From NCBI GenBank assembly GCA_033964015.1, contig CM066924.1, forward strand, positions 25,717,280 to 25,781,279: 64,000 nt of DNA. Direction: 5' to 3'. Below the pieces are notes generated by a model. That model made no database searches, was not told the DNA's origin, and saw only the letters and a list, made by a program, of their open reading frames with translations. A program made the position numbers and the translations under genes. The first letter of the stretch is position 1; each line of letters opens with the position of its first letter. Shown one piece after another: positions 1 through 39,555 of the stretch. The DNA is from Scolanthus callimorphus (lineage: Eukaryota; Cnidaria; Anthozoa; Actiniaria; Edwardsiidae).

Positions 1-428
1 TTACCTAGTTCCTCCTCAAAGTCCGCATCACTGTGTTGTAGAAGATGGAAAATAGCGATGGTGTAATGATTGACACTTACCTAGTTCCTTCTCAAAGTCC
101 GCATCACGGTGTTGTAGAAGATGGAGAATAGCGATGGTGTAATGATTGACACTTACCTAGTTCCTCCTCAAAGTCCGCATCACTATGTTGTAGAAGGTGA
201 ATAGCGATGGTGTAATGATTGACACTTACCTAGTTCCTCCTCAAAGTCCGCATCACTGTGTTGTAGAAGATGAATAGCGATGGTGTAATGATTGACACTT
301 ACCTAGTTCCTCCTCAAAGTCCGCATCACTGTGTTGTAGAAGATGGAGAATAGCGATGGTGTAATGATTGACACGTACCTAGTTCCTCCTCAAAGTCCGC
401 ATCACTGTGTTGTAGAAGATGGAGAAAT
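1..428 (-). repeat. Tandem array of the exon 24 donor, 73-76 bp units
   Basis: Copies of the exon 24 end and its 5' splice site recur at unit starts 1, 77, 153, 226, 299 and 375. Each unit carries about 45 nt of coding sequence ending GAGGAACTAG, a donor, and about 30 nt of intron. The array is cut by the window edge, so the true number is unknown. Confidence 0.95.
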
Positions 429-465
429 TTGCGCACAGTCTTGACTGGAGGATCTTGCATAGAAA
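379..465 (-). CDS. IQGAP: IQGAP exon 24: segment before the GAP-related domain
   Basis: The 87-nt exon encodes SMQDPPVKTVRKFLHLLQHS then DADFEEEL. It corresponds to the IQGAP1 stretch DPPMVVVRKFVHLLDQSDQDF. The acceptor is CTTTCAG. The donor of this copy is GTACGT, whereas most of the tandem copies further left carry the stronger GTAAGT. This is the last exon I can place before the window edge. Confidence 0.9.
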   Translation of the reverse strand, partial: FLCKILQSRLCANFSIFYNTVMRTLRRN

Positions 466-3400
466 CTGAAAGGAGCCGGAAAAATAGGTGCCGAATGACG
501 GTAAATAGAGCAAGTTGGATAGTCTAGTTAAATATGCAAAACACGTCTTTATTTGCTGGTGTGAAAACAAACACTGACAGTCACTCCTAATCTACAGACA
601 GCTATCATTTTAATGGAATGGATTGAATGCTATTGGCTAGATTTCAATGTATAAAGTACAATTGAATGGAAAATGTGGACTAACTGAGTTTTCTGTAGTC
701 GTTCTGCGCCACATTTGCTCTGACCCACGCTTGGATTTTCACAATAGCTGCTTGCTGTGGACATGAATGAAAACATGGATGGTGTGAATAAGTTTTTAAC
801 ATCTGAGGAAAACGAAATTGCCTTAAATACATTCGCTAACCAGAGCTAGTCCCAGATCATGCTAATGCAAGAGCGCACAAATTTCAAAATTACAGATCGG
901 AGAAGGACGTCCAATTATTTATTGCTTAAAATGCTTTAAACACGAAATATTGCAACCTATCAAAAACGTATGCGTTGAAATCCGCTATAGGGCATAACAA
1001 GGGACACAAATGTTTACAAAGTCATAACTTCAAAAGGAATTCGAACTTCCAAGATCTCCGACACGGTTTTTTAGAACACGTCTAAGCCCATGGTAAAATG
1101 TTGCCAAAGAACAAAAATAGTGTATATTCGCGTGCGTGGAACTCTCGAAGCTTGAATTAATGCGTATATTTTGACATGCCAAAAGAACTAAGACGGAACT
1201 TGAATGAAACTATACAATGGTCGATGTGTTGACAAAGGTACGGCATACCAAGAAATACTTTGTTCCAAAGGTAAATTATGCAAAAGTACCCCGGAGGTGT
1301 TCTGTAACCTTAATCACGCAGTCATTACATGGTAATCGCTTCCTTGTCGCCTGCTAAACATGTGTTCTCAGAATGTGCAAGGAAGCTCTCTCGTGCTACT
1401 TGCCTTGCGTGGTATATACGTGTTATTCACGTGTCAGTCACAAGCCACTCACGTGCTACTTGCCTTGCGTGCTATACACGTGTTATTCACGTGTCAGTCA
1501 CATGCTACTCTCGTGCTACTTGCCTTGCGTGCTATACACGTGTACTTCACGTGTCAGTCACATGCTATACTCACGTGCTCTTTAAAGTACTTTTCTCTCT
1601 CCAAGTATTTCTTTCTTGCCAGGCACATTCTCATCCATGACTGGATCTGCAGGAGTGAAACAAGAAAGAGAACACAAAGTTTTATGGATAACCCTCACTT
1701 ATGGATAACCTCGCTTATAGTGTACCTCACTCTTAATCCTGGGGCATTTAAGCACGAATCCGTTGTCCAGACTCGCATTTTTGGAAAAGATTCGCATAAT
1801 ATACAATTGAGCGTACAATCTCGTGCTGTTAAGCAAGACGTTTTTGTTTTTTTGTTCTAAAAGCCAAGTAGTTCTTCTCTGTTTTAGAAGCGTGTAAGTT
1901 TGAACGGTAGTCCAAAACAGATATACGTGCGCGATGAAGATCCAGTATCTGCTTATCCTGTATCAAGACAGCGGCTGATACAACATCAACCAACAAAACA
2001 GGCAGAACGGGCCTAAGATCGGACTACAGCTAACAATGTTTGCTACCTTGATGACATCTTCCTCTGAGTCTTTTAACTCTTTCAACCTCTTACGGTACTT
2101 GGTGCGTTGTACAAATCCACGCACATTCGCCTGAAATAAACAAATTGAATTTATTGGAGAAAGGAAGACTGGCTAATATTATAATGCCGCTTTTGTCATT
2201 CGTCGCACCACCAGTAAAAACAAAGTGACTACAATAAGTTAATGATTGCGGTTGACTGGCAGAACATGGCAAGTATATAATTTTCGCAACTACAGAGATA
2301 AAGTACGAGTTCTTAGTTCTTCCCTCTGTCAGCTTAGTAATTTGAATAAATAAATGGAGCAAGTGTTCCAGTCTCGAAGAAAATAGAAAAACGGGGACCA
2401 CAGCATAGTGATTTCATGTTCAGGTTTAGTGCCATTCGAGTTTATGAGTTAGATATGAATAGTGCAGAGCAATCAAAGGAAAAATGATAATAACAAATAC
2501 TAAGTATATGAGTATATAAGTGAGTTGAAACGTCTAACAAACATACATTGCTTAGTGCCAAGCTGCGGAAAATTCGCAGAATAAACAATTGAACAGATTT
2601 TGAAAACAATGTTGTTGCAAGACTTCAAGATGTTAAATGTTAGTATATTATCACTTACCACTGTTGCTCTAATTTATTTGAGCAAAAAATAAAATATTAT
2701 GAAAAGAAAACCTGCTTGGTAAGCAGGCGAGAGTTCCTTTATTGACCGAATATGGTCATAAACTAGCCATGAATAATCCACAGCTTGGTTCGCAGTTACA
2801 TGTTTCAACTAAGTTATATGTTTCTGCAGCAACTCATTGTTTTCGTGGTTACAATAACTTAACAATAATAATTTAACTTTCGATAACACATTCTTTGCAA
2901 AGCCCAATAAACATTCTTACAATGCATATCTCTAAAAACACCAGCCCAATTATCCACGACACAATATACCAAAACATCAAACTACGCCACATAGTAGTTC
3001 TCGCTTCTCGATCCCTTCTCTCGGCCGTAGCATCGTTGTTGTTGTTATTTCCCAGTGTTTCGTGTATTTGTTTCAAGTACCTGGTTATATACCGTAATGG
3101 AGCATTCCCATTGGTTAGCTAGTATCACGTGACCGCATGTAGTCAAACTACGGGATACGGATTACGAACAGATTAAACGTTTTCACGGTTTTTTTTTTTC
3201 ACGCAATTTTGGAAAAAAAAAATATCTTGGTCTATGTTGATTCCATATTAGAGTAGGTATGACTTCAGAGATATACACCTGTTTCAATTAACGTTGCTCT
3301 GCAAAACGTAAAACCATGAACCATGCTTCATCAGTCGAAATGGTAATTCCTGCCTAAAACGAAGCGGTTCACGCCAAATTGTGTCTCAAAGTAGTAAACA

Positions 3401-6400
3401 AAGTGCCATTGGGTGGTTTTAGTTTAGTTTGGTTTGCCAAACTCGAGGAAAATACAAGAAATAGCGTCTTCATTATGATGCATGGTTTTACGCTTTGCAG
3501 AGCAACGTTAATTGAAATAGGTGTATAAAGCCGGAAGCTTTTCCTGGATGAAAAAAATACCTGGATGTTTGTGCCACATGGAAAGACACTGGATGTTTGT
3601 GCCACAAGGAAACTCCCGTTTGTCAAAATTTCTGGTTACATCCATGAAAACGTCCTTGAATAAAATGATTCTTTTGTTATTCTTAACAGAAGGGATGAAA
3701 CGTTAATATCGACAGAAATTAGTAATGCTCCACTTTATGTGTGTTTGAAATGGCATCAAGCTCGAGGGAGATGTGACAATAGACGCAAATTAAAAAAAAA
3801 ACGTTCTCACCTGTATTTTGATGATAGCTGGTAGTTGTTCTACAGGCCGTCCTATCCTTGTACTATTACATGACAAGGTACCGTTCTCACCTGTATTTTG
3901 ATGATAGCTGGTAGTTGTTCTACAGGCCGTCCTATCCTTGTACTATTACATGACAAGGTACCGTTCTCACCTGTATTTTGATGATAGCTGGTAGTTGTTC
4001 TACAGGTCGTCCTATCCTTGTACTATTACATGACAAGGTACCGTTCTCAACACGACTGCTGTCTCACCTGTATTTTGATGATAGCTGGTAGTTGTTCTAC
4101 AGGCCGTCCTATCCTTGTACTATTACATGACAAGGTGCCGTTCTCAACACGACTGCTGTCTCACCTGTATTTTGATGATAGCTGGTAGTTGTTCCACAGG
4201 TCGTCCTATCCTTGTACTATTACATGACAAGATACCGTTCTCACCTGTATTTTGATGATAGCTGGTAGTTGTTCCACAGGTCGTCCTATCCTTGTACTAT
4301 TACATGACAAGGTGCCGTTCTCACCTGTATTTTGATGATAGCTGGTAGTTGTTCCACAGGTCGTCCTATCCTTGTACTATTACATGACAAGGTGCCGTTC
4401 TCACCTGTATTTTGATGATAGCTGGTAGTTGTTCCACAGGTCATCCTATCCTTGTACTATTACATGACAAGATACCGTTCTCACCTGTATTTTGATGATA
4501 GCTGGTAGTTGTTCCACAGGTCGTCCTATCCTTGTACTATTACATGACAAGGTGCCGTTCTCACCTGTATTTTGATGATAGCTGGTAGTTGTTCCACAGG
4601 TCGTCCTATCCTTGTACTATTACATGACAAGGTGCCGTTCTCACCTGTATTTTGATGATAGCTGGTAGTTGTTCTCTGATGAAGGTTCTCCTGCCATCGT
4701 ATGCCTTCCTGGCGAGGTAGCCTTTCCAGTGAGCCTGAAGCTTGACGATCATGGGCTCGTTAGATTGGAGGTACACCATCCGATCATAGTCGCCCGTCTC
4801 GCGGGACACAACATGCTAGGCACGGGCGAAGAGAATAGAAAGATGGATGTCAATCGTCAGCACGTGAATGGTTCCCTCGTGGGCTCAGGGGCACTAACAA
4901 CAGCGACAGGGGCTGTTTATCGAGTATATATTTTAGATGTATTGTTTTTACGAATATGCCAGTGGTGAAGGCACCTGCACCGAAAACTGGCCACAAATGG
5001 TACCCCTTTTTAATGTACATGACCTACAAAAAAGCAAGCTTGATTTCCGATCCGGTGACAGTGACAATTTGAGAAAAGTACAATTGGGTCTCAAAACCGG
5101 GTTAGATATGATGACAGACTGGATCCTGAAATGTTTTACAACGAGAGCGAGTCGTACTCAGGCCAAGGCGACTCACGAGAATCCGTAGAGCTGGTAGGCA
5201 CTCTAACCATCTACCATAGACTTGACCATATTTGCAAGCTCTAACCTGTATTTCTTCCTTGGTGAGGAGCGCGGAGTTGTTGTTATAGTCGGAGGGAGCT
5301 TTCCAGCAGGTGTCTCCGGATAGGCTGTTATAGTAGAACATGTGACCATGACTTGTCTTCTGGGCAAGCCACGGAGATGTACCACCTGAAACGCAACAAT
5401 CTCGCTTAGATTCCTAACAATGATGCCTAAATAAAAACTGTCCGCGCCTCTGGCTTTAACGCAATGTTGAACCAAGAATCGCACTGAAAATAGCTCATCG
5501 GGCGAAAAGTGCATCCTTCTTTTCACAAATTATCTACGTTTGACTTGAATCGGCCTCATGGTGGCGTTTGTAACCAGAAAGGTCTAAGAATTAAAATTCC
5601 TCATAAAACAGTCCCAATGCAGGATATCTCAGACAGCTGAGTGAGCGCTCTTGTAATTTGCCCGCCATGCAACTTACAGTGTGACCCAGGTATAACTCTT
5701 ACCGCTTCTTTCTTGGCTTGTTTAGCGGCTTGTAGCCTGTTTACATACACCTCAGCACATGCAGATGTGACACTTCGTATGGACGCACCAGGATCACCAG
5801 TGCCGCCATGCAACTTACAGTGTGACCCAGGTATAACACTTACCCGCTTCTTTCTTGGCTTGTTTAGCGGCTTGTAGCCTGTTTACATACACCTCAGCAC
5901 ATGCAGATGTGACACTACGTATGGACGCACCAGGATCACCCAGTGCCGCCATGCAACTTACAGTGTGACCCAGGTATAACACTTACCCGCTTCTTTCTTG
6001 GCTTGTTTAGCGGCTTGTAGCCTGTTTACATACACCTCAGCACATGTAGATGTGACACTACGTATGGACGCACCAGGATCACCCAGTGCCGCCATGCAAC
6101 TTACAGTGTGACCCAGGTATAACACTTACCCGCTTCTTTCTTGGCTTGTTTAGCGGCTTGTAGCCTGTTTACATACACCTCAGCACATGTAGATGTGACA
6201 CTACGTATGGACGCACCAGGATCACCCAGTGCCGCCATGCAACTTACAGTGTGACCCAGGTATAACACTTACCCGCTTCTTTCTTGGCTTGTTTAGCGGC
6301 TTGTAGCCTGTTTACATACACCTCAGCACATGTAGATGTGACACTACGTATGGACGCACCAGGATCACCCAGTGCCGCCATGCAACTTACAGTGTGACCC

Positions 6401-7536
6401 AGGTATAACACTTACCCGCTTCTTTCTTGGCTTGTTTAGCGGCTTGTAGCCTGTTTACATACACCTCAGCACATGCAGATGTGACACTTCGTATGGACGC
6501 ACCAGGATCACCCAGTGCCGCCATGCAACTTACAGTGTGACCCAGGTATAACACTTACCGCTTCTTTCTTGGCTTGTTTAGCGGCTTGTAGCCTGTTTAC
6601 ATACACCTCAGCACATGCAGATGTGACACTACGTATGGACGCACCAGGATCACCCAGTGCCGCCATGCAACTTACACTGTGACCCAGGTATAACACTTAC
6701 CCGCTTCTTTCTTGGCTTGTTTAACGGCTTGTAGCCTGTTTACATACACCTCAGCACATGCAGATGTGACACTACGTATGGACGCACCAGGATCACACAG
6801 TGCCGCCATGCAACTTACAGTGTGACCCAGGTATAACACTTACCCGCTTCTTTCTTGGCTTGTTTAGCGGCTTGTAGCCTGTTTACATACACCTCAGCAC
6901 ATGCAGATGTGACACTACGTATGGACGCACCAGGATCACCCAGGGCGGCAACAAGTTCTTCCGGGTCGCCATTATCAATAGAGTGGTTAATGGCAACCAA
7001 TCCCTCGGCTAGTTGGTGTGTATCGCCCGCATGCTTGTTAGAGTGATCTATACACGTCTGAATCTCGCCGTGCCACAACTCAGCAGAGTCTTCACCAGTT
7101 TTCTTGACAAACAACGGTAATCGAAAGATTTAGAGGTCAATGGTAACACCATTGTGAAATGATCAGGGATTTCAATTGAAGTAATAAATATATCTCTAGG
7201 TGATGTGACCGTACGTGAATTCTGTACTGTGATTGTGTGGTGTAAGGGTTGGGGGCCTTTTTCTCATACCTGTGCCTTAGCGACCTTCGTAGCGTACAAT
7301 ACTGCCTGATAGACCTCCGCATTCGCCTCATCTACCTCAGTCAGCTTAGCTTGGTCCACTGATAGCGCCGCAAGAGTGTTACTCGAGTCACCACTTTCTA
7401 TTGCCTCGTTAATCACCGCGATGGCAGATATTACTATAGATGTAAAGTACAAATGTAAAGTCAACGAGCGTGACAGAGTGTTACTCGAGTCACCACTTTC
7501 TATTGCCTCGTTAATCACCGCGATGGCAGATATTAC

Positions 7537-7572
<36 letters not shown>

Positions 7573-10500
7573 TAATAATAATAAGTCAACGAGCGTGACA
7601 GAGCAGATATTACTATAGATGTAAAGTACAAATGTGAAGTCAACGAGCGTGACAGAGCAGATTTGTTTGGCTCTGAAAGGGCTTACGACATACAACACGC
7701 TTACGGTGCGGAACCGAGACTTACAATAAGCCGTTTGTGGCGTGAGAAACCGCTGATCAACCATCAAAATGTTCCGACGTGTCACGACAGGGCGCGTCAC
7801 GATCACGTCACGGCGCAATACGTGCCCACGTTCGTTCTGTTTATAGCTTTTCTATTTATAGAGATAGATTTGTTACAACGTTTGCTGCAGGCTCAAGAGG
7901 GGCTCAACGACGGCTCAAGAGGGGCTTACATTTTCAGTTGAACGACATGATCTGGAATTAAAAACGATTGGCTTCTTCGGCACCGGCCAATACAAATGAG
8001 TAGTCGTGAGTTATTCCAATTCCACTAACATCCTCATCTCTACTACATCCAGTACTCGAGAGTTTTTGAGTGTTATTTAGAAAGAGTTTTAAGAAAAGCT
8101 AGGAAAAGAATGTAAAAAAATATCATATGCTATTGATGGGATGATTAAAGTCGCTGGTAAAATAACCCTTCATCATGCAACTGATAATACTGATAACAAA
8201 ACCGGTAATAACTATTACATCACTTAATTTATTTATCAGACTGAATATAGATTTTTTGAAGTATATTTATTTAACGTGGTGACAGGCATTGAGGCACGCA
8301 ATACAAGTATTCTGTTATCAGGTTATAGTGTTCTGTTAATTGACTAAAGTGCTATTCAATATCTCACACAAGTGCAGTTCTAATAAAACCTTGACATGCG
8401 GTTTTGTGCTTGCCTGCAACAAAAGAAGGTGACTTTGAACGTATGAGAATCGTCTTTCTGACTCATTGTACCAAGACAAATAACCTTGAATCGCTTTGGC
8501 TATAGCTTTACTTTGTTTTCATTGTGAGCACCAGACTCACTCGTATGAGCGCGCTGGAGACTCAGGGTTGCAGGATAATCACAACCAGACGTGTCACTCG
8601 TATGCGTTTGAATACCAACGCATTACCAACCAAGAAAATCTCACTGCAAGCAACGAGGAAGCTCCTGTCAGAAGTAGCATTCTATACATGCTATTGTGCT
8701 TTACTTCTGTCCCTTCTTTTGCTTAATCTTCTTTTCTTTTAGCGCCACAACAGCAGGATCATCCTTCTTCAAGTTCTTCTTGTGGTACACATCGAACACA
8801 TCGTCACTCTTAATCGCAACCATTTCACCGTAGTCGATATTCCCGTCATTGTCCACGTCTAGAATGTTGACAAGTTTCTTCAGCTGTCGTCTCGTCATGG
8901 GTATGCCAGTTTTCTTGACCCCAGCCATAAACTCAGCGCGAGTGATTTTCTTGCTGCCGTCTTTATCCAACTGGCGGAAGAAGTCAACCATTCGCAGGCC
9001 TCGTAACTCGATATACTCTAGTAGAAGGTTCAGCACGTCCTGAAAGAGAACGCACACGAGAAAATAGTGTAGAATTTAATTTATTGTTCCAACCTCAATA
9101 ATTGTGTTCAGCTGCATCAAGATAATAGATGCTTCACTATTCTCGTCTTTCACAAACCATTTTGACTGTAAACCTCAACAACATCATGTGTCAACAACTT
9201 GGTCATCATTATCGTCAAGAAAATCATCTTCGTTTCCACATAATCGTCACCATCTTCATCTTTATTATTACTAATCATCACTAACCACAAAGTCATTACT
9301 GTTTACCACCATTGTCATTGTTTGCACATCATCAGTATATTCATCACCATCACCACCCTCTCGTCATCATAAGCAACTGCGACAAGATCGCCTTCATCAA
9401 CGTCCCAAACTAACCATTATTAAGATGTCCATCGTCGTTATCCTTACCAACTTCATCAGCAGCATCAGCGACAATATCGCCTTCATCAATAATCACCATT
9501 ACCATCACCAACAATATCTTCAAGGTCATTTCCATTTCGACATCAACATAATGAACACCAGTACAAACAAAAACAACACAATCCCCATAATCACTATGAG
9601 AATTGTCATATAAATGTATAGTATGGTTTATTCAAGCCCATCGCAATAACTATAATGAACGGGTCATCAAAATGACTCATCGTTACTTACCACTTTCTTC
9701 TTCATCTTCTTGACGCGATCTTTCCCTCTCATGGCGGCACCGCATTGCACGCTCAGATTTGGTCTAATTTCCAGTACATCTTCTAAAAGATCTTCAAACT
9801 CGGCAGTGACTGGGATGTCATCAAAACCGAGCTCTTCCATAGCGCTTTCCTCGTTCTTTTGTATAGCAGAGAGGATGTCAAAGGCACCTTGGCTTAACAT
9901 TGGGTTCTTGCCTGTGAATGGTCAAAGCGAAACAACATTCTTAAATATATCCAATACAGTACAGGGGCGGATCCAGAAATTTCAGAAATCGGGGAGGGGG
10001 GAGGATAGTGAAAATATAGGAACCTTAAATTGCAAATTCCCTTTAGCAAATACAGTGTATGGGAAAATCTCCCGAGAAAGGGCGGGGGGCAGCCCCCCTA
10101 GGGTTAGGGTTTTAAGTCCGCACCTGATGAATATAAAGAAGGAAAACTGATTTTGTAATCCGTCAAGATTGACATCAGTGATCTATCATGGGGCCAAAGG
10201 GCTTTGTGTAATGGAAATCTTTACATGAGTGAATACAATTAAAAACATTATTTGGGTAAGCGGTCATCATCAACATAGTCATCCTTCACGCCCTCATCAT
10301 GTTGTTGTCGTTATCATCACTACACCACGAAAAGCAAAACCAACGCAAAACAATAACTATTTCGTGTCTCCGTGCCAGCGCACCAAATTAGTTCTATTTC
10401 TACGTGGTTCAAAAATAAAATAGAGTCCACAACATGTCTTACCTACACGCAGAATTTGTAGTGTAGAATTCTTCAGCAGCCCGCTGGCGATATGTGCCGC

Positions 10501-13500
10501 GCCGATAGTTGAGATTCTGTTATTAGAGATGTCCAATTCCATTAGAGTGTTGTTCAGCACTAACGACTCTCCAACAGCCTTCGCTCCATCGTCAGCAAAG
10601 CCATTCCACGAGATGTCCAGAGATTTTAGGGCGCAGTTGTGACGTAAGCCGTAACCGATGGCAACGGCACCTTTACGACGGATCTGATTCCAGCTAAGAT
10701 TCAAATACTCGAGACCCACATTCGAGTCGATAGCAGGACCTAATAACTGACCGCCAATCTCACAAAAGGAGTTATGGCTCAGATTCAAAGATTTCAATGT
10801 GTAATTTTCCTTCATTGCTTCAACGATCGGCTCGACGTCCTTCTCGAAAAGTTTATTTCCTGATAAGTTTACTTCAAGTATTCCGAATTTTGCCGGAGCA
10901 TTTCTGAGATGGCATAAGCCCCTTGAGATTGTAGATCATTTTGGGTAATATCCAGCTCGGCGATGAAAAAGTTCTCGGTGAGCATTTTTGAGATGTAGAT
11001 GGCTCCTTCCTCCTGGATGTCATTATTGGAGATGTTAAGAGTAAGGACTTTGGTATTTTGCATTAAGGCCACTGCTACAGCCTCAGCGCCTCTAGGTCCG
11101 AGATTATAATGTTTAAGGTTCATTTCTGGTTTGTGGAGCTGTCTAAGAAATGGCGAACATGGTACGAGGCCTAGGTTAGCGCACGCTTTGTAGTAGACAC
11201 CTCTTCCTTGGCTTGTATCCTCATCTGACTGCTCCCCCCGGAATTCGGACTCGATATCGGTATCATATTCAGCATCACTACAGTCATCTTGTTTTACAGG
11301 GGGTTCATTTCGCCATCGGAGTCTGTCTCGCTACCAGCACTGGTTGTTGGGACTTGACGGATACATCCGACCTCAATTTTGGTGGTCGAGTTGGAGGCCA
11401 TTCTGATAGAACGTGAATGATCACTTTTCGCGTGATTGGAAAATAGCTAGAAGTGTTGAAAATTCATGCAACAGCACGTAAAACGCAGGACGTCTTAACG
11501 CAAAAGGAAAACCACGTTGAAAGGTGTAACCGACAGATATTTGCGGCACGTGAAAGGCGCTAACTGCTCATGCGTTTGGGAAACAACTTCACCAACTGTT
11601 CACATGTGAGTGGAAATACTAGAGTACGTCATATGTACATTCCTTTTCAAACGTATTGTTACTCTTGTATAGTGTAGCCGTCCCTTCGCCTTGCAGGTGC
11701 TTGTTGCAAATCCCCGGTACTGTATCAGTATTGGTAACTTCAGCTTGGTAACTTCCTTTTATCTTCGGTGTTTAACCTATTAACTTCCGCAGTTAGAAAC
11801 AGAGAGACTACAACATCCGATACCACTGAAGCATCTTTATCAAATAGCAACTGCTTTTTGACGCAAACTCTTGTTGACGCAAAACAGTTATTTGTTGAGT
11901 GTCTAATTTTACAAAATTAATGATCGACGAATCTGCTTTTCAATTTCCTGTGTTTCTATTCCGAACGAAGTTCGTATGTTTACTGGCGAGCGATCTCAAA
12001 CGTCTCTTGACTCCAGCTCATTCCACGCAAATGTGTTCAAAATATTTCTTGAAAAGTATGAGCATAGATTTCGAATCTCTTGAATTTCGCCAGAAACTCG
12101 TTAAATTGTATTAAGTCGTTAGAAACGCCAAGAAAAATAAGTACTTGAGAAAACAAACTCAGATGCCTTTGGTACAAGTCAGTAATGGCGATACAAAACT
12201 GAGCCCAGTAGTATGTACGTGTCTTGGGATATTTTCAGGTTGCCTTCCTGTTCAATTCTTTCAATTGTAATGAAGCTGTGTAAAATTTGACTTTATACTG
12301 TAATGTCCTTAATTCTCCACAAGAAATTCGTATATCATAAAATCCCCTTAGTGTTAAGACCTTAACGTAAGAAGACGTGAAGTTTAACGACCACCAGACG
12401 TGAATTAAATGGCACAGAATGACAATCTTGATGTTCCCTGTTTTTGACGGCTTGAAATGAGTAACCACAACTCTGAAACCCTGATAAACATAATATATAA
12501 ACATGTCTTGAGAGGCTTGTTGCCTAGCGATGGCAAACTGAATAGCCTCGGGAAATCTCCATTTCAATGTTAATATTTAGAGAAAGCCAATGAGAAATAG
12601 CAATGAATAGTAATTATACATCAGAAACACTCAGTAGGGCTTGAGACAGGCATTAATAAATAATGGCTTCAAGAGGCCATCGTGTTTACGCTTTTTAACT
12701 CATCTTCAATACCAGTCCTCATATATTTGCAGATATATTTTGGCTTTGTGTTTTTAGAACTTACGGATTCAAAATTAAGGTTATTGAAAGATAGACACAA
12801 GATTAAGTATTCTAGAAGAACGTTATTAGATATAAGCTGTTTTAGAGGAAATTCAAAAAAAACTAAATCACAGGCTAATGAGTTTTAGTCAAATCACACT
12901 ACTGTCAATGCTGCGTTCTGATTGGTTTAGCTACTAGTAGGCTATAAGTTATAGCCTACTAGAAGCGAAAAGTCGGATTTGAAAGCCAGAAAATGGCAAA
13001 TGACCAGACCAGAAAACGTTTTTGGCTATACAAATTGGCCTGCTAGTGTGATTTGACTAAAACAATTATTTCTCTCGCCCTCATGGCCTCTATGTCAATA
13101 ACTCATTCTCGAGGAATAATTGTTAAATATATATCCGTGCTATTGAGTCATATACAATCCAAGATGGCGGCCACGCGAACGCAAACTCGGAATTTTCGAC
13201 CTAAAAACTGCTCTCCAACGCCTGCGAACAGGCTACCGTACCGGCAATCATCTGAACTTGCATTCATTTTCCTCCTGTACCATAGTATTGACATGCTACC
13301 GTACCGGCACTCATCTGAACTTGCATTCATTTTCCTCCTGTACCACGGTATTGACATACTACATGCTACTGTACCGGCAATCATCTGAACTTACATTCAT
13401 TTTCCTCCTGTACCATAGTATTGACATGCTACCGTACCGGCAATCATCTGAACTTGCATTCATTTTCCTCCTGTACCACGGTCTTGACATACTACATGCT

Positions 13501-16500
13501 ACCCTACCGGCACTCATCTGAACTTACATTCATTTTCCTCCTGTGCCACGGTCTTGACATACTACATGCTACCGTACCGGCACTCATCTGAACTTACATT
13601 CATTTTCCTCCTGTACCACGGTCTTGACATACTACATGCTACCGTACCGGCACTCATCTGAACTTACATTCATTTTCCTCCTGTACCACAGTATTGACAT
13701 GCTACCGTACCGGCAATCATCTGAACTTACATTCATTTTCCTCCTGTATCACGGTATTGACTTACTACATGCTACCATACCGGCAATCATCTGAACTTAC
13801 ATTCATTTTCCTCCTGTACCACAGTATTGACATACTACATGCTACCGTACCGGCAATCATCTGAACTTACATTCATTTTCCTCCTGTACCACGGTATTGA
13901 CATACTACATGCTACCGTACCGGCACTCATCTGAACTTACATTCATTTTCCTCCTGTATCACGGTATTGACTTACTACATGCTACTGTACCGGCACTCAT
14001 CTGAACGTACATTCATTTTCCTCCTGTACCACAGTATTGACATACTACATGCTACCATACCGGCACTCATCTGAACTTACATTCATTTTCCTCCTGTATC
14101 ACGGTATTGACATACTACATGCTACCGTACCGGCACTCATCTGAACTTACATTCATTTTCCTCCTGTATCACGGTATTGACATACTACATGCTACCGTAC
14201 CGGCACTCATCTGAACTTACATTCATTTTCCTCCTGTATCACGGTATTGACATACTACATGCTACCATACCGGCACTCATCTGAACTTACATTCATTTTC
14301 CTCCTGTATCACGGTATTGACTTACTACATGCTACCATACCGGCAATCATCTGAACGTACATTCATTCTCCCCACAGTATTGACATACTACATGCTACCG
14401 TACCGGCAATCATCTGAACTTACATTCATTTTCCTCCTGTATCACGGTATTGACATACTACATGCTACTGTACCGGCACTCATCTGAACTTACATTCATT
14501 TTCCTCCTGTACCACGGTATTGACATACTACATGCTACCGTACCGGCACTCATCTGAACTTACATTCATTTTCCTCCTGTATCACGGTATTGACATGCTA
14601 CCGTACCGGCAATCATCTGAACTTGCATTCATTTCCTCCTGTACCACGGTCTTGACATACTACATGCTACCGTACCGGCAATCATCTGAACTTACATTTA
14701 TTCCCCCCACAGTATTGACATACTACATGCTACCGTACGGCACTCTGAACTTACATTCATTTTCCTCCTGTATCACGGTATTGACTTACTACATGCTACC
14801 ATACCGGCAATCATCTGAACGTACATTCATTCTCCCCACAGTATTGACATACTACATGCTACCGTACCGGCAATCATCTGAACTTACATTCATTTTCCTC
14901 CTGTATCACGGTATTGACATACTACATGCTACCATACCGGCAATCATCTGAACTTACATTCATTTTCTTCCTGTACCACGGTATTGACATACTACATGCT
15001 ACTGTACCGGCAATCATCTGAACTTACATTCATTTTCCTCCTGTACCACGGTATTGACATACTACATGCTACTGTACCGGCAATCATCTGAACTTACATT
15101 CATTTTCTTCCTGTACCACGGTATTGACATACTACATGCTACTGTACCGGCACTCATCTGAACTTACATTCATTCCCCCCACAGTATTGACATACTACAT
15201 GCTACCATACCGGCACTCATCTGAACTTACATTCATTTTCCTCCTGTACCACAGTATTGACATACTACATGCTACCATACCGGCACTCATCTGAACTTAC
15301 ATTCATTTTCCTCCTGTACCACGGTATTGACATACTACATGCTACCCTACCGGCACTCATTTGAACTTACATTCATTTTCCTCCTGTACCACGGTATTGA
15401 CATACTACATGCTACTGTACCGGCAATCATCTGAACTTACATTCATTTTCCTCCTGTACCACGGTATTGGCATACTACATGCTACCATACCGGCAATCAT
15501 CTGAACTTACATTCATTTTCCTCCTGTACCACGGTATTGACATACTACATGCTACTGTACCGGCAATCATCTGAACTTACATTCATTTTCCTCCTGTACC
15601 ACGGTATTGACATACTACATGCTACCGTACAGGCACTCTCTGAACTTACATTCATTTTCCTCCTGTACCACGGTATTGACATACTACATGCTACTGTACC
15701 GGCAATCATCTGAACTTACGTTCATTTCCTCCTGTACCACGGTATTGACATACTACATGCTACCGTACCGGTAATCATCTGAACTTACATTCATTTTCCT
15801 CCTGTACCACAGTATTGACATACTACATGCTACTGTACCGGCAATCATCTGAACTTACGTTCATTTTCCTCCTGTACCACGGTATTGACATACTCCACAC
15901 ACAGCTGGAGCTCCAACGGAGTGAGGTCATCTTTACCAACACCGCAGTCCTGCACATACCAAGAAAACAATTTACGTTCAATAGTATTTTCGATTTTTCC
16001 CCTTTTTGGGGGGGGGGGGAGTCTTAACAAAATTCAGGCCCACCACCCTCTCTCACCCGGTTCAAGGCCTTATTTTTCAATACAGTAAAAACCCGAATTA
16101 AGAACCTGGAAGCCTCAATTTCCCCATTTTAACTACCCTTTTTATAAGAACCTTACAGTAAACATGAGAGAAATAATTCAAAATGATTTAGCCTAAACCA
16201 AGAAAAAGTAGGTTCTTATACGCGGGTTTTTACTGTATCACAAATTTCAGACTTGAAAAGGATCCATTTGGCACCAATAAATGCGCCATATTTCAATCTT
16301 GAATATCGCTCGCGCCATAAAATGGTTTCCCTTTCAAAAACATTATTACTGTAAAGCGCTTTGGATCCTTGAGAGAAAAGCGCTATAAAAAATAACTAAT
16401 TATTATATATAGACCTTATATTTAGACCTTATATTTTAACAGTATTTATATACTATCATTACATGATCCTTGTATGTATAGAATTATTGTAAAGCGCTTA

Positions 16501-19500
16501 TTGGATCCATAAGAGAAAAGCGCTATAAAAATTAACTTATTATGGTTATTATTGTAGCATGATGAATACTACAACTCGTAAATGTGTACCTATTAGTCTT
16601 ACTTTTTATCTGTAGAGTGTATACTGATGAGTTTACCGTGTGTATAAATAAACGTATGTATATATGTACTACGAATACTACTACGAATACTACTTGTCAT
16701 TATAATATTCGTCAGCCATTTTGACTTTGGGTTAATTTTCTTTGCTGGTTCATTGCACAAGTCAAGACTAAGGAAAGTAAATCCAAAAAGGAACAAAAAT
16801 TTGGCTAGATTATGCTGCTTGTTCCTATCTGTGAAGTATGTGAAACTTCCGAGCTCTGGGTCTGTCAATCAATTAAGTTGTTCTAAAGTAATTAGGCTGC
16901 ATTCATTATGTATACTACAGGGGGGGGGGCAGAGGATTTTTGGGGGGGATCTCAAAATTTAGGAACTGGAAAAGGGGGGATGTCAAGTTTTTTTCATAAC
17001 ATGAAGGGGGATGCATTATTTTTGTTGAGGTATTATATATATTTAAGACAAGGTTGTGCAGTTTGATAGTAAATGAAGGAAGGCTCAATTGTTGAACACC
17101 GAGTTTGAACCTCCTTCCTGAAGAAATATCACTTGCACTACTATTCTCGTGTATTCACCCTCTTTCAACTGATATGTTGAAAAAAAACTGCGCGCTTCGC
17201 GCGCATAAAGAATTATATTAAACTTAAAAGATCGTAAAAGGCCTTCTTGTTTTACTACAATTCCTCAAGGTCCTCTTCAGTGGCTTTCGTCTGCCAGACA
17301 AAACGCCTTTGGACTTTTGATTAATAGTCTTGTAGCTTCATTGTCAAAATTGCGACGCGCTTCGCGCGCACAACGGAAAACATACCAAACAATCAAATAC
17401 AAAATAAATGATACTCAGCCTATGTGTAGTAAGGCTCCAATCGAGGAGCGCACCAGATCACTTGGTAGAAAGTCACTACCGACACAAAAAAGTAAAGCCA
17501 CCTACGATTTTTATTTGCATTTTTACGCTTTGTATTTTTTTTTTTATCATTGAGCCTTGTTCTTTATTTTTTGTAAAATTGATATAAATATAAATTGAAA
17601 AAATTGTCTCCGGGGTGATGGGGGGGGGGGGCATGTTTTTTCCTTTTGACCAAGAGGGGGGATTCGTAAAAAATGTTGTGCCTTGGGGGGATCTGAAAAT
17701 TTTGCATTGTCAAAAAAATTTCCTCTGCCCCCCCCCCTGTAGTATACATAATGAATGCAGCCTTATCCATGCCAGAGCTAGGCAAAACTCTATTGTTCTA
17801 CGACATTGAGGATTCCCCACGAAGAACATGTCCTATTGTTTTAACCACAGGAAAATAAAAGTAAAAAAAAAAAAAATGTTAGATTTCCACTTGCTTTGAG
17901 AAAATAAAGCAATAGAAAGTCTCTAGACCAATCAGATCAAAGAAGAACAAAACAGGTAGAATCAGCATTTTACGCTAGGTTCCCCACATACAAAGTCTTT
18001 AAAAAATGTCCTGTTTGTGAGTACCATATGTGCCCTAACAATCCACAGAAAAGTTCTTTACTGTTTTTTGTGTCTACGCCAATGAAATTGCCTATATTTT
18101 CAATAGAAATTAATTGCATTCCAACATGCTTTTCCGTTGGCTTGCCTAGGTCTTATACGGACCATTACTTAGGGCACGTCCACGCTAACGCGTTTTCGTT
18201 TGAATCCGTATACTTTTTGATACGTTTAGGCATATCGTTTTAGTGTGGACGAATCCGGATAAAAATGAAAACGAATGACGTCAACTGTACCACTTACAGT
18301 GCTGCGCGTGTAACCGTGAACACCCAACAAAGTTTCTTTCAAGTTTTTTTCCAAAAAATATTGTCGCGTCGCAATTTACGATACAAAGGCACAACGATAT
18401 AAAGGCACAACTCTCAACATCGATACGTGCTAATACATGCAACACTGTAACTGATGAGTAACGCATGTGGTGGAATAAGCGGAAGTACTCGACGTATACC
18501 TGCGCCTTTTCTTGTTTGACAGAGACGAAGTGATCGAGATATCTCCCTGCTAATGTTTCATCCACCATGGAGAGCATGGAATGTGGCTTGTTCATCTTAC
18601 GGATCAGTTCATCTGAGTCCTGTTTCTCAATAGCGGCATTGATTGCAGCAGCAACCGATAAAACTGAGAAGGCAAAGTTTCATGTAAATATAGAGAAATA
18701 AGAATAGATCTTCTCTTTTCGAAATGTCTAGTAAGATACGGTACCTGCATGCCAGTATTAAAAGTACGCACCTTTTACTTGTTCATAGATATCTTCATAC
18801 GCTAGGTCCTGGAAAAGCAACGTTTGCATTAGTCCCAACAAGTAACCTATTTGGTTCTCGCCTGAATAAACACTGCACGCGCTTCTTGTCCTTTTTCCAA
18901 ACGGAGAAAATCAAGTTGATTTTCCATAGGCTTGGGTCTGCTTCAGTTAGATGAGCTAGTGTTTTGTCTTGTTTGCCAGCCCGTGTGAGCGTCCAGCTGT
19001 TAGTCTGGTTCCTGTAGACGATATGCCCGTAGCCGATAGACAATGTTACCACCTAACCCTACCTGCTGTAAATTCTGTTTAGTCTTGGAGAGTCCATCAT
19101 GATACATGAATGCACTTCTGTTCTGCACTTTAGGCATCATAGCTTCTGGCTTCATCAATAGGGCATGGGTCTGCTCAGCGTTCTCGGTGTCTAGACTGGC
19201 ATTAATAGCTACTACTACTGATTGCACTGGAAAATGGATTGAAGACAAAACACTTTTACTTCCAAGTACAGATGTTGGTGTCAGTGAATAGTGTTGAAGA
19301 TCTTACTTTGGGTGAACGATTCCGCCTGACTGTTAGCCGCCGTTACTCCCTCCTGGATCTCAGCGTGTATCAGACCAATATTACCAGTTGTCTGAACAAA
19401 AGATTGTGTCAGTAACACAACATTACTTCCTCCTGGATCTCACCGTGTATCAGACCAATATAACCAGTTGTCTGAACAAAAGATTGTGTCAGTAACACAA

Positions 19501-22500
19501 CATATTCTTAAACATAAGATACATGAACGAGAGTAATGGTTGGTTCTTCCTTTACAAAACGTTATACGCTGCGAGCGTCTCACGAAATTAAACTCCCACC
19601 CAAAGGAAGATGGGCTTTTCCCAAAAGAGTGTGAAAGAAAGGGTCCTTCGGATTTAGACGTTTTTCTCGACGTTTAAGGCAAAAAACTGCTATGTAACAT
19701 TTCGTGTCATAGACGCTTTAAAGGTGTGGTCCCTTGAAATTTCTAGGGGTCCCTATTCTAAGCAAGCTGAAAGGTTTTCTAACCTTTCATTTGCATTGTT
19801 GTAGCAGTCGCACCTTGTAGACATTACATAATATAACTTCTGTTCTCAGTAACACTACGTACGTTTTGCAACATCTCTTGCTGAACAAGTGCCAAGGGAG
19901 GCACTAAACTTATTTCTTGGAAACAGGATGTACATTTTGATGAGCGTCTTGAAGCACTTGACAGAACACACGTGACAATTACATGATAAATTAAGGTATA
20001 TGAATAAATGTTAGGTGGTACAAACATAAAAACAGAACACACGTGACAATTACATTATGAATTAAGGTATGGGAATAAATGTTAGATGGTACAAACATAA
20101 AAACAGAACACACGTAACAATTACATTATGAATTAAGGTATGGGAATTAAGTACTATTTAAAACACGAGCAGATTTGTTTATGCCTAGGTATCCTGGTAG
20201 GAGTCTGTACATGGTAATCGCGGGGCTTCAACGGCATTTAGTCGAAAGTGGGAATGGAATTCAACTACTGAATCAAAGCAATGCAAGGTAATAATACAAG
20301 TTCAAGTAATTTTCAATCTGACAACCAATTGTTTGACTTCGAAGTTTCCGATGAATTGCTTGCAAATCTCTGCCAGAGGCTAGTCCAAAAATAGTTATGT
20401 TCAGTATTTACTAACTGTACCTTTAATTTCATCAAATAGTTTGTACGAGTACAGGCTCTATAGAATAACTACATTGTGCATGTATAAATATGTTACTTGA
20501 AGTAAAGTAATAAAACACTTATGACCATATATTTGTGCATTTTATGTGAGATCGAAAATGCATATGAACATGAAGCATTATATAATGTCACTAGTGACAT
20601 TATATAATGCTTCATGTTCATTTGCATTACTTTGTTCTTCTATTTACCCCAAGATTTCCCTGGGGTAGAATTCAATACCCTCCCCTGGGCTTTAGAAATG
20701 TAGAGTATTTTATTGAGAATAAAGTTCATTCACGTGTTCAAAGGAGGTCATCTGATTGGCCAAAACACCTATCGAATATGAATGAGTTTTTTAATGTTAG
20801 ATGGTACAAACTGTATTAAGGTATGGGAATAAATGTTAGATGGTACAAACATTAAAGTGTAGGGCAGAAATAGGTGTTTCTTTTCAAATGGCCAACTCTA
20901 ACCTCCTCGTTGATCCTTCTCCTCTCCAGTAACGCCTGCATGTACCAGTTCATGTTGTGGGGGTCCTGTCCCTTCAGTCGTGCCGCTTTACTCATTATAC
21001 CCTTACGTAACGTGTCAGGATCTTCTGCTGCTAAGGCTTTGTTAATGATGAACACGGCTTCTTCCACTAAAACAACCAAAGATACGAGACACACACTCAG
21101 ATTTACCAGATTCGTTAGTATCAAACATCCATTGAAGTTTATCATTGTGATATTTCTACACTCCAAGGTTTAGTGTAACATTTGGAAATAGTTACTTTCA
21201 CTCATCTTCTAGGGTCTTGCAAACGCTACAGCATTCTGCTATCAAATCTTGCGCTTCAGTTAACAGTGTAAAACGAGAATAGCGCTAAAAAAGCGCGGCA
21301 ATGATATAGTATCATCACTAGGTTTTATCTTCGAAAATGTATCGAAAGAAAAGAAAGGCCTAGCTTCGCAGCCATGGAAGTATTCTCTCACCAGACGCAA
21401 TATGTTCAAAGTATTTAACGTAAGCAAAACAAACAAACAAACAGATAAAACGGCTTACTCGCAGCTTGTGCTCTTCTTCTCCGCACACTCTCGTTGACTT
21501 GGTTGAGGTAGCCCTGGATTTCGGCTTGTGTTAGAAGCTTATCATAGATGTCCTCTTCTCCTTTGCTTCCTGGCGACTAAAATCATACAAAAACAAGCCG
21601 TCGCTTGAATGGAATTTCAAGAAATTAATGCTCCCAACCCATAACAGAAACACAACACCTTTTGTGTGGGATAATGGGGTAGGGAATGGAGTACCCCCAA
21701 AATTGGTCACACGAATGTCTAAACATTTACTATCCTGGTAACATCCTCTGGAGGGGTTACAATCCCCTGTGAGGTCTTATGTGATTTTGTGGGAGCTAGA
21801 GGCAAGGGGTTACAATCCCCTTGACCTCGATCCTCTAACGGGGGTTAAAATCCCCCAATTGAGTCTTAGCCTATCTAGGGTCCCCCTCCATGTAACCATG
21901 GTAACGAAGCTATATGCTGGAGGGGAGGCCCTAGCTTTGTGCGTCTATGGGGCAAAGGGGTGACTAATATGGGAGCACTTTTTCCCACAAATACACAGAG
22001 TGTATCGATAGACCCCATCCCCACATCCCTCGAGTCTATCTGTTGCTTGCATATACGTTAAGGGACCACAGGAATTGGCCCATGCTGTTGTGGATTCCCC
22101 GCCAGATGTTCATGTCTGTCTCGTGATGTGTAATTAGTTTAATATGTTTGTATAATTATTATATTTTCTTTTGTTAATGGCGAAGCAGAATAAATAAATA
22201 AAAAATAACGTCCCGATGGGGTACTCAATACCTTTACTAAAGCCTGTGCAGCCTTGGCTGACTTGGCCTCAAAAAGTGTAACCTGATATTCATCAGCATT
22301 ATCTTGGTCCAGGTCTGACAAGTGAGCATTAGGATTGCGCAATGCCTCAAGAGTGCCGAGGTGGTCCTGATGATCGATAGCTTCATTTATCGCTATCACA
22401 GCAGCATGCACTGAAAACAATGACAATTATGTAATCAGCCACGATTGCAACCAAGTGTTCGTTTATTAAATTCTATGAGTGACTGCTCTCATTGGTAAAC

Positions 22501-25500
22501 AGCTCTTTTAACATTTTCAAATGACCATTTCAACTGTTACTCAATCTGAGGCACTGGCACATTTTAACGCGTTTTCAAAAGTATCCGGATTAGTTTCACC
22601 GAAAACGCATCGATTGGCCCGCGTCCACACTACCGTTTTCATAGCGTTTTCAGCCGTCCACACTAAAACGCTCGAAAACGCTGAAAGGGATGGCGTGACG
22701 TCATTTTGATCATATACGCATGCTCAAAAGAGACGTGCCTGCGGTATTTTCGGTTTCACACCAGTGCGTCTTTGAAATCTGAAATCACGTGGTATAGTTT
22801 ACGTCATCGTTTTCATTTTGATATTTTTCGACCATCCACACTAACACGCTATGCATACGGATTCGTTTTGTCCATTTTCAAGAGGGTTTTCAAACTGATA
22901 CGGATTCCATGAAAACGATCAGCGTGTTAGTGTGGACGGCCTAACGAATCAAAAATTATTTTTATACTCGAAGTAATGTTGAATAAAGTTGATCATTTAC
23001 TAGACTAGACGAAATATCAGAAAATTGCAATATTTAAGGCGCATGAGGCATTTTTAGTAAAAGCTGGCAACAAGAGTTTTCTAATGTAATTTTTCACGCT
23101 GAATCCGATTTTTCTTGTTGCCATTTCTGATTTTGCATTTTAATGGGTGAAAATGACGTCATCATGATTGACAGCTGTTCGCGAACCCCTTAAAATAGTT
23201 TTGTCGCTATATTTCAAATTCGAACGAATATTTAACTTGAACAGGATAGTTTAGAAAGTTCTATACGAAAAATTGTCGTGTTATTCGGATATGGCGCTGC
23301 TGTGATATTCAAAATGGCGGATCAAAGATGGCCGCCATATCGTCAAATTTGATTTTTAGAAACTATCAGTCTGGTACTCAAAAAAGACGGAAATAAATAC
23401 CTGACAATGAATTCAAGGTATCACAGTATGAAATGCAGTGCTGCTGGTCGAATGAAGCCATATTAAATATATAAAAGGCAAATCAATATGAAAAGGTGAA
23501 TCAGATTCACCGCCGCTTGATTTTACGATCTTAACGATATCACCATTTTTCGATGATCATCCTCATTCCCGGCAACAAAACTGTGCCTTTGAAGTCCTTA
23601 TATCAAAAGCTTGTTCAAAACGATCATGCAATCTGCTGCCCCGTGGCATAATCGAAAAATAGCGGAAACCTCAGGATCAGCAGAAAACCTCAATAGGAAA
23701 CCTCAGACAAGAAAGGGGTTGGAAAAGGGCTTTCAAGCATAGAGAGGAAAGCTACTCCGAGGACAAATTAAAGTCTTACATTCGCTACTTTTGCTTATAA
23801 GTTGAAAGTTGCTACCACCAGGCTATAAAAAAAATTCGGAAAAGGCTGGAGCAACGCCTAAATTGCCATAGAATGATTTCCACCTTTATCCCTGCTTTTT
23901 CTTATCATTATTATTCCTGTGTGTGTAAGAGGAATATTAAAAGAATAGTCGTAGATGTAGTTGACTCAGTGATAGGCTTTGGAATCAATAGTCATAGTGA
24001 GAACTTTTACAGTAGGGACGACTAACTTGCTAATTTGTGGATTGCGCTTCCTACCTAAATTCACTAACAACAATCATATATTTACCTATATATTATTCTC
24101 TTTCCACCATAATCGTCAGTTGCTACTTTTTTATGTATTGCAGAATCGTTTAAGTTTTGTCTTTTATTTTTTTTAAGTTTAGCCTTTGAACGTGATGGCC
24201 TCAAACAATCAACAGATATCCAAAATGGCGGCACGGCTGCCATCTTGGATCCGCCATTTTGGATGACGTTCTACGCCCCATCAATCACCCTATCCCATAA
24301 TATAGATACATTTTTTTGAATATCACATTGCCACTTATACATTTGAATTTCACTGGCCGTTAAAATTTGAAAAGAAAAATCGGCGAAAAATTCATTGTAG
24401 AGGTTTGTGTGACAGCTGTCAATCATGACGTCATTTCACCTCTTAAAATGCAAAATCTGCGTTGGCAACAAAAAAATTCGGATTCAGCGTAAAATTTCGC
24501 ATAAGATGGCACTTGTTGCCAGCTTTTACTAAAAAATGCCTCATGATGTACGATTTTCCGAAAGTTCGTCTAGTCTATACAGATCATACGGATTCAGACG
24601 AAAACGCGTTAGTGTGGACGGGCCTAGACAGCTTGACTTTCATTTTTTCATAGTTATCATCTGAGATAAACCCCTTCTGACCTTTCGCCCCAAGCCCCCC
24701 CCCTCCCCCCGCATAAAATACATTGATTGAATTAAAAACGCTAGTAGCTGAGTAGCAGGGACTTCTGTACTGCGCATGCACGAATCTGCTGACCAATTCA
24801 ATGTGGTCCGGGCGCTTTAATTGCCAATTTCCATCGTTTTAGTCGGAATTGACATAATGGCGCGAAGTTTTCAGCTCGCACTTTTCTTTTTTCTCTATTT
24901 TGTAATTCAAAATATTTCTACGATAAGCTCTAGTGTTGTGTGCAACAAACGAGATGTCGACAGGACATGTCCTGACTCCACTTTTAAGCCATGTTACGAG
25001 AGTGTTACGGAAATTGTTTCAAACGACGATGATAGCATGCAGCTTGTACAGCATACGATACAGACGATATACTACCATAGAAAAGCCATTGCTGAATTCA
25101 TAAGAAAACTTAATTTATGATTACAATCTTTTAAAACCTTGAAGACCCCCTCACCCACCCATCGAGGTTTATAGCACTGGACGACTGCCACAATCAGTAT
25201 TACAAAATTTACGACGAACGACAAATTGATTTTGTTTTTGAGTTTATTTCTTGGCAGACAAGTCATTTTTAAGACGCTAGAGAAACACTTCCAATTACAA
25301 GAAGGTATTCACTCAAAACACCCAACCCCTATCCTGCCTAGAGGCCATCCCTACAGCTCTTTAGTTGCATATTCTGTCACAGTTAGAATCACAACATTGA
25401 TGGTGTGAAAATGCCCCTGCTACAATTCAGAAGATCTGGAAAAATAAGATGGATGAAATATGTCAACATTACTGATACTAAAAGTCGTTAAAGACCTGCA

Positions 25501-38700: not shown

Positions 38701-39555
38701 CATCAAAAATGCATCATAAAAGGCATCAAAAATGCAACGAACATAAAAGGCATCATAAAAGGCACCACAAAACGCATCGAAAAAGGCACCGAAAAGGTAC
38801 CACAAAATGCATCACTGCAAAAGGCATCAAAAACGCATCACAAAAGGTATGTTACGCAATTGATCACCAACTCCATGCACATAGCCTGTGACCATGCTAT
38901 AGAAAGATTAGTTACTGATGTGAGGATCTGTGCTGAGACATTAAACGAAATGAGACAGAAACAGGAAAACTTGGCAAAGGAAAATAATGACAGATTTCAA
39001 GGGCTTCAGTTGTCTATCAATGAACTTGTTATGAAGTTTGAGAAATATCATACGGAAAGCAATACAAGTATGCAAAGAATTAAAGGGGAAGCTGATGATC
39101 AAGTGTGCCAGTTGCACGCAAAAACAAAATCAGTTGTCGAGGACATTAGAGGGAACATTTCATCAACGCGTCAATGGACAGAATCAGAATATTTTAAACT
39201 GACAAGAGAATTTGAAGGCCGACTTGAACGGTTTGAGAAACTTATTATGACCAGACAGGAGAAGCTAGAATTTAAGGTTAACACTTATCTGGCAAAAGTT
39301 GAGAAATTGATAAATGAAGAGAAGGATAAGTATTTCAATCTCTGGGAACTCAGGCTGAAAGATACAATGTCAGAACAGGAAAAACAGCTGAAACATACAT
39401 GTGCCACACTTCGGCATGAATATAAACTGGGCTTTAATACTGTACACGAAAGTGTTACAAGTTTACAGAAAGTACTTGAGGCAAAGCTGAAACTTGTGGA
39501 AGATGACCTTCGCAAGTCTATAAATAATATTTTACGAATGGTGGTTCTGGTGTAA
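35740..39555 (+). CDS. FAM81: FAM81 coiled-coil protein gene (two coding exons)
   Basis: Exon A is 35740-36166 and exon B 38885-39555, joined T-CC in phase (427 + 671 nt, about 365 residues; human FAM81A is about 368 by recollection). Exon A has LEDRLFNQEKTTRALVDRAL, LLQEHIRTITSVVKRLSREI and VTDLRGRVAR, all strong FAM81 signatures. Exon B has CDHAIERL, SSTRQWTESEYFKLTREFEG and the closing VHESVTSLQKVLEAKLKLVE. The protein is predicted to be mostly coiled coil. FAM81A has been linked to synaptic condensates in vertebrates; the function in an invertebrate is unknown. The donor AT-GTGGGC is weak and the exact junction is an inference. The intron is largely a mobile element. Confidence 0.9.
37145..37639 (+). 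CDS. Basic, possibly DNA-binding ORF of the fold-back element
   Basis: The 164-codon ORF starts MLKTGAKRLLKSRKRNLELQ. Its first 110 residues are very rich in Lys and Arg. A segment RSSRKRAIDKVREALPHSPS, then KKAAILKSL, resembles ORFs I recall from repetitive elements in cnidarians and other invertebrates. The C-terminal 35 residues lose this character, which suggests truncation. No transposase catalytic motif is visible. Confidence 0.4.
   Translation: MLKTGAKRLLKSRKRNLELQNERAKRYYERKREEILAKKKEKKNSSGPKSSEQVRAKWRFYKNTERQRKTKAKKTSSSAGSGFANRSSRKRAIDKVREALPHSPSKKAAILKSLIDSPQTRSHLADTGTRDYGNTIRVYGNAHKEYCIVFFLLVYIELKDTKRV
38192..38494 (-). CDS. Unrecognised ORF inside the fold-back element
   Basis: 100 codons starting MLTNSDEHLWLVDELQYIDY. 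Its amphipathic, helix-like composition looks more like a protein than a random frame. It is on the opposite strand to the other ORF of the element. No family was recognised, and it could be a fragment of a larger gene of the element. Confidence 0.3.
   Translation of the reverse strand: MLTNSDEHLWLVDELQYIDYMLRIQEERMQTVFRRLILMKSTIAIGNLNAGDEEQAIVLMLVRIREFFADVRGLMCTLSGHRSRTISLLDSINCLNESRD

Follow-up and report, generated by a model that had tools for sequence, protein, structure and literature searches.

Minisatellites that lie across exon-intron boundaries have been described in amphioxus under the name of mirages, with examples in Adh3, the globin genes BflGb6 and BflGb9, troponin C, and PGBD5 (PMC3087553, PMC3902484), the PGBD5 case and the mention of troponin C both coming from PMC3902484. 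Mirages are reported to have an unstable copy number and to leave splicing undisturbed (PMC3087553), the evidence for them includes RT-PCR, haplotype comparison, and re-sequencing (PMC3087553, PMC3902484), and it is suggested that they give rise to new introns and may be general in cephalochordates (PMC3087553). Two other systems are related. Intron gain by tandem duplication of AGGT segments is treated in PMC4974935, the model being discussed also in PMC3087553, and variable internal tandem repeats in human segmental duplications are described in PMC2812944 as lying half in coding sequence, with modification of the proteins. Somatic instability has also been reported for the amphioxus Adh mirage. 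Work on mirages was reportedly also published by Canestro in NAR in 2002, as cited through the later amphioxus papers.

We describe here tandem arrays at the exon-intron borders of an IQGAP gene that lies in part within a window of 64,000 nucleotides (C14:25717280-25781279), taken from an assembly of 597 Mb and 302 contigs. Positions are those of the window, with negative numbers lying beyond it. The first-pass annotation of this window knew of no described class like these arrays, a statement that has to give way to the mirages already published in amphioxus (PMC3087553, PMC3902484). No cnidarian mirage report was found in a limited search of the open-access literature.

The IQGAP gene and its border arrays

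The IQGAP gene is on the minus strand, and in our manual model its exons 1-24 lie inside the window (1..35080, with the start codon at 35080), encoding 902 residues with no stops and with 23 internal introns that are all GT-AG. The exons beyond the window were modelled on the next 20 kb downstream with the Nematostella protein as a guide, and the whole model has 40 exons and 1553 codons, also with no stops, and extends to -16460. Pfam identifies a CH domain and IQ motifs in the product. The top protein match among the best 120 of 1386 matches (7999 candidates scored) is Nematostella vectensis IQGAP1, with 78% identity across the full query; among the matches listed, that of Exaiptasia is weaker (65% identity over 58% of the query), and that of the coral Stylophora has 63% identity over 70% of the query. 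By homology, the source of the gene is a sea anemone nearer to Nematostella than to Exaiptasia or Stylophora. An amphioxus source, considered at first on account of the mirages described there, is rejected given the Nematostella match. A 985-bp stretch of the gene searched against the assembly was found once. Two exons of the model are peculiar. At exon 29 (about -2202) one acceptor shifts the frame; moving the acceptor on by 2 bases opens it again and leaves the product with 2 residues fewer than in Nematostella, which is either a genuine variant or an assembly base error. At exon 40 (about -16460) the exon-adjacent donor is GC (AAGG/GCAAGT), and GT is present in three of the four distal copies, which is possibly a GC-AG intron next to better decoys.

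The window contains several other features. A second, distinct gene, whose exons encode EF-hands and leucine-rich repeats (Pfam) and which we take to be LRRC74-like, lies at 8701-11400 within IQGAP intron 16 and on the same minus strand. Head to head with IQGAP is a gene without a Pfam match, presumably FAM81-like, and between two of its coding stretches there is an insertion-like segment (about 36787-38847, its right end near the second stretch) bordered on both sides by GATGCCTTTT-type repeats in inverted arrays and containing a basic open reading frame (37127-37639) with no Pfam match. Degenerate retroelement remains are seen at 41900-45100, where one frame has a weak Integrase_H2C2 match below the cut-off, and, as judged by eye only, at 61300-62500. 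At 58800-60840 two copies that appear similar by eye are situated about 1.2 kb apart, each ending in 44-bp minisatellites (59135-59644 and 60336-60841). Rfam and tRNA scans across the window gave no matches.

The first-pass annotation had reported seven amplified splice sites in the IQGAP gene (the donors of exons 16, 18, 20, 22, and 24, and the acceptors of exons 12 and 17), and all seven are present at those borders (Table 1), with unit lengths that differ among the arrays and agree with the values it gave (73-76 bp for exon 24). For exon 18, TRF finds nine copies rather than the ten or so that it gave. Its total of at least seven proves to be an undercount, with TRF calling five more border arrays downstream of the window, at the donors of exons 27, 33, 36, and 40 and at the acceptor of exon 39; another array lies 1 nt from the donor of exon 34 and was left out of the border count. 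Unit lengths among the border arrays of the gene range from 23 to 143 bp, and the unit sequences differ from array to array. The two copies of the exon 17 acceptor, identical at 40 of 40 compared bases, were not called as an array by TRF and constitute a twelfth border case in addition to the 11 TRF arrays. Exons 1-11 have no border array, and the density along the gene is uneven.

Table 1. Duplicated splice sites of the IQGAP gene inside the window. A slash within a motif marks the exon-intron border. Exonic lengths per unit are from the TRF limits relative to the modelled border; a permissive extension overran and was dropped.
Feature	Extent	Strand	Authentic site	Unit and copies	Splice-site copies	Exonic part of unit
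Exon 24 donor array	1..426, running to -87	-	donor after 379	73-76 bp	7 donor sites	~48 nt
Exon 22 donor array	1388..1579	-	donor after 1575	60 bp x 3.2	GT in 2/3 array donor sites found	~5 nt only
Exon 20 donor array	3802..4675	-	donor after 4645	80/97 bp, 10.5 copies (TRF)	11 sites, all CAG/GTGAGA	~31 nt
Exon 18 donor array	5662..6943	-	donor after 6844	143 bp x 9 (TRF)		~100 nt
Exon 17 acceptor duplication	7374..7545, outer limits approximate	-	acceptor before 7433	102 bp apart	copy before 7535	
Exon 16 donor array	13228..15894	-	donor after 15859	70 bp x 38 (TRF)	39 sites, 35/39 with GT	~35 nt
Exon 12 acceptor duplication	19343..19503	-	acceptor before 19391	80 bp x 2		~49 nt

Within the IQGAP gene as a whole, 11 of the 22 arrays span one of the 79 borders, nine of them at donors and two at acceptors, compared with an expectation of 2.45 (P = 4.6e-6). 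The arrays counted are those called by TRF with a period of at least 20 bp, with overlapping rows merged and shorter periods excluded, and the expectation supposes that each array began as a single unit whose position in the collapsed gene was random, except that it could not fall entirely inside an exon. The excess is similar for arrays with a score of at least 200 (10 of 17 at borders, 2.2 expected, P = 9.8e-6), and smaller when predicted exons and a cruder formula are used (10 of 21, 4.5 expected). Because IQGAP was selected for its pattern, the fair figure is that for the portion of the gene outside the window, unseen when the first-pass annotation was made, where five of 13 arrays are at borders and 1.78 are expected (P = 0.0215). 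These excesses, which are 4.5 times expectation for the gene and 2.8 times for the unseen portion, count against a plain neutral process, and together with the predominance of donors they favor models in which exon-intron borders, or IQGAP itself, form a mutational hotspot where tandem duplications arise far more often than in the interior of introns, through R-loops, a paused polymerase, or a nucleosome edge. We nonetheless regard a hotspot as unlikely, in view of the counts from other genes and from the genome at large.

Border arrays in other genes and across the genome

We sampled 14 other stretches, consisting of seven blocks with RasGAP domains (170 kb) and seven myosin genes. Exons were predicted in the RasGAP blocks with an ab initio scorer trained on IQGAP, which recovered 10 of 20 exons and made a single false call in a half-held-out check at a threshold of 18 and was applied here at a threshold of 16; the myosin exons were guided by Pfam, and the expected values are from a simple length formula. 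In the RasGAP blocks, eight of the 38 arrays inside gene spans are at a predicted border and 4.4 are expected, which counts for a hotspot and against plain neutral duplication. In contrast, none of the 15 arrays in the seven myosin genes, as classified by program alone, is at a border (2.5 expected), and the pooled total for the 14 stretches is eight of 53 compared with 6.9 expected, a count in which two similar pairs of loci (C33/C13a and C9b/C9c) are not independent and in which three hits (a 21-bp array in C9a, a 97-bp array in C9b, and a 25-bp array in C9c) are calls of the predictor alone. Borders outside of IQGAP are thus hit at a near-random rate, which argues against a hotspot and for neutral duplication, and the earlier suggestion that arrays favor exon-intron borders has support in IQGAP but so far none from the other stretches. 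Inspection by eye accepted border arrays in six of the seven RasGAP blocks, all except C9a; in C9b the predictor chose the wrong strand, and an acceptor reading on the opposite strand was adopted, and in C33 the predictor overlooked an acceptor array. The likely cases by eye include a donor array with a 146-bp unit, an acceptor array with five copies of 95 bp, a donor followed by 28 units of 24 bp, and acceptor arrays with units of 48 bp and 39 bp.

Genome-wide, pairs of the strong donor motif CAGGTAAGT spaced 40-70 bp apart occur at 151 places compared with 69 for the reversed motif, but these totals are dominated by individual arrays: one on C14 accounts for 83 of the 100 pairs listed among the 151, and one array likewise accounts for most of the 69 control pairs. 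When tandem clusters are counted, there are at least eight for CAGGTAAGT (from the 100 of 151 places listed) and 10 for the reversed motif (from all 69), even though single CAGGTAAGT sites are about 1.3 times commoner (5337 compared with 4027); probably only about a quarter of the CAGGTAAGT sites are true splice sites. Pairs of a second motif, AAGGTAAGT, number 18 and show no excess over the 29 of its control. Neither motif test against controls is positive for a genome-wide excess of repeats at splice sites, and both weigh against a hotspot.

Three places with donor pairs were examined in sequence, one clear (on C14), one exon-like (on C2), and one ambiguous (on C13). At C14:14861800-14862400 an apparent coding exon ends in a donor and is followed by 64-bp units containing a piece of exon and the donor, in an array that reaches at least C14:14867818 and has about 90 copies as calculated from its span. 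This is probably a very large mirage, and the start of so long a donor array at an apparent coding exon is a further point in favor of a hotspot. The exon-like place, C2:36178500-36179100, has 70-bp units with an open stretch, SDEVFKRTKLMHQ, and with acceptor-like and donor-like ends, so that each unit resembles an entire mini-exon, and neighboring copies are separated by about 28 bp. Border arrays recur in the genome, and a preference for borders is not detectably above chance outside of IQGAP. The broader proposition, that the transcribed borders of some genes are true duplication hotspots in anemones with IQGAP as the extreme, and that mirages are animal-wide and feed new exons and introns, strikes us as unlikely; if the hotspot reading were true, the exon 17 acceptor pair of IQGAP would be a case in transit.

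Origin and consequences of the extra copies

Two RasGAP-gene loci, on C33 (a 1.18-Mb contig) and on C13, share 97.7% identity over 6.5 kb, and the same acceptor is present as one copy in C33 and as five in C13, at exact 95-bp steps and with 0-3 mismatches among the copies. The 95-bp unit in C33 consists of 43 intronic and 52 exonic bases situated between AGTGTAAACC and AGTGTGAACC, which are exactly 95 bp apart, and at this one locus the breakpoints of the array fall at a 10-base direct repeat. The pattern is what slippage or repair involving short direct repeats would be expected to leave behind, and it supports such an origin. The same gene has a second acceptor array, with a 48-bp unit, whose copy number is 19.5 in C33 compared with 31.5 in C13. 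At a pair of similar C9 loci, an acceptor array with a 39-bp unit differs likewise, with 14.8 copies at one locus and 9.8 at the other. The C33/C13 and C9 pairs may be alleles that were assembled separately, or recent duplicates, and the single copy in C33 could be a contraction rather than the ancestral state. C33 and C13 likely provide a before-and-after view of one array, in which its origin, its growth, and its effect on splicing are open to direct testing.

We also considered that repeats were falsely multiplied during consensus building, as the first-pass annotation had allowed. C33 and C13 hint that the assembly may keep two versions of some loci, and the array copy numbers are those of the assembly. 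However, distal units in the exon 16, 18, 20, and 24 arrays, the four that were compared, diverge from one another by 1-6% on average, copy number differs between similar loci, independent arrays are found in several genes, and the IQGAP frame is open over 40 modelled exons; moreover, the amphioxus class is reported to have RT-PCR, haplotype comparison, and re-sequencing in its support (PMC3087553, PMC3902484). An assembly artefact is extremely improbable in our judgment.

Donor-like copies were listed outward from the authentic donor at nine IQGAP donors (exons 16, 18, 20, 22, 24, 27, 33, 36, and 40), the search at exon 18 recovering seven of the nine copies found by TRF. Some copies lack GT, and an in-frame stop is encountered in 69 of the 70 extensions to distal copies; the only open extension, of 23 bases at exon 33, shifts the frame. 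The upstream acceptor copies also give stops at exon 12 (1/1) and exon 39 (3/3), and use of the one at exon 17 would add 34 in-frame codons with no stop among them. Since nearly all of the extra sites lead into stops, a full-length IQGAP very likely depends on splicing at the exon-adjacent site. Every array nevertheless supplies numerous good decoy splice sites, which is a warning for annotation.

A different set of models proposes that surplus splice sites or exons of variable length are maintained by selection, whether as reserve donors, as extra U1 binding for exon definition, or as a source of protein variants. With the authentic site included, GT is kept in 35 of 39 copies at exon 16, seven of seven at exon 18, 11 of 11 at exon 20, and seven of seven at exon 24, and at exon 24 the six distal GTAAGT sites outscore the authentic GTACGT; these properties and the open extension at exon 17 are consistent with selection, and retention of GT in most donor copies also counts against a neutral process. 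However, it could be explained by homogenisation alone. The stops in all but one of the donor extensions make the redundancy of splice sites, raised earlier as a benefit, not likely, and copy number varies between similar loci. Within the exon 16 array, minor bases amount to 3.0% at donor positions compared with 3.5% at exonic and 4.3% at intronic positions, and because the donor positions are about as variable as the rest of the unit, no selection on the distal donors of this array is visible from positional variation. At exon 20, 30 exonic positions are invariant in 11 copies compared with 6.7% in the intronic part, a comparison that involves few variable sites and from which no conclusion is drawn. 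We view maintenance by selection as quite improbable.

The account that we favor as the best, and consider probable, is neutral or near-neutral tandem duplication of the mirage type through short homology, with later change in copy number. A short stretch bounded by chance direct repeats, one exonic and one intronic, would be duplicated in tandem across the splice site, whether by unequal exchange, by slippage during replication, or by microhomology-mediated repair, and unequal exchange would afterwards make the array expand and contract. The arrays would be tolerated because the exon-adjacent splice site survives: the authentic site still adjoins the exon, with extra donors downstream and extra acceptors upstream, both in the intron. 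We infer the mechanism of duplication, the ancestral version, the near-neutrality, and the use of the exon-adjacent site in vivo. The presence of diverse units at the borders of an otherwise intact IQGAP counts for neutral duplication, and the uneven density of arrays counts against it. In its plain form, neutral duplication does not explain the IQGAP excess, unless the gene was lucky.

Relation to known systems

A unit spanning an exon-intron boundary, which defines a mirage, is found in the 11 TRF arrays and in the exon 17 duplication, with respect to modelled borders, and donor and acceptor borders are both affected, with acceptor arrays present also in other genes. By this defining anatomy the IQGAP arrays can be assigned to the mirage class, which is itself already published. 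As in amphioxus, the unit contains a piece of exon, a splice site, and a piece of intron, there are donor and acceptor types, and the units fall in the range of 10-160 bp. Copy number, variable in amphioxus, differs here between pairs of similar loci that may be alleles or recent duplicates. Splicing in amphioxus is reported to be unaffected. Unlike the amphioxus mirages, those described here have a cnidarian rather than a cephalochordate host, are situated at 12 borders in the single IQGAP gene, run to about 39 copies at exon 16 of IQGAP and, in the C14 gene with the 64-bp array, to about 90 as calculated from its span, and include a single-copy version beside a five-copy version, as in C33 and C13.

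Intron gain by AGGT duplication is similar in that a short tandem duplication copies splice signals, but the modelled extra copies in IQGAP sit within introns and no exon is added; IQGAP exon 17 is the closest case to a step of this type. The internal tandem repeats of human segmental duplications are likewise minisatellites that lengthen exons or introns, some of them at exon-intron boundaries, whereas the anemone arrays leave the modelled protein unchanged. What is new here is the cnidarian host, the density of arrays in one gene, and the 97.7%-identical loci with one and with five acceptor copies. The occurrence of mirages in a sea anemone, with many in one gene and others recurring elsewhere, suggests that the process is perhaps much older, or that it takes place wherever minisatellites are active.
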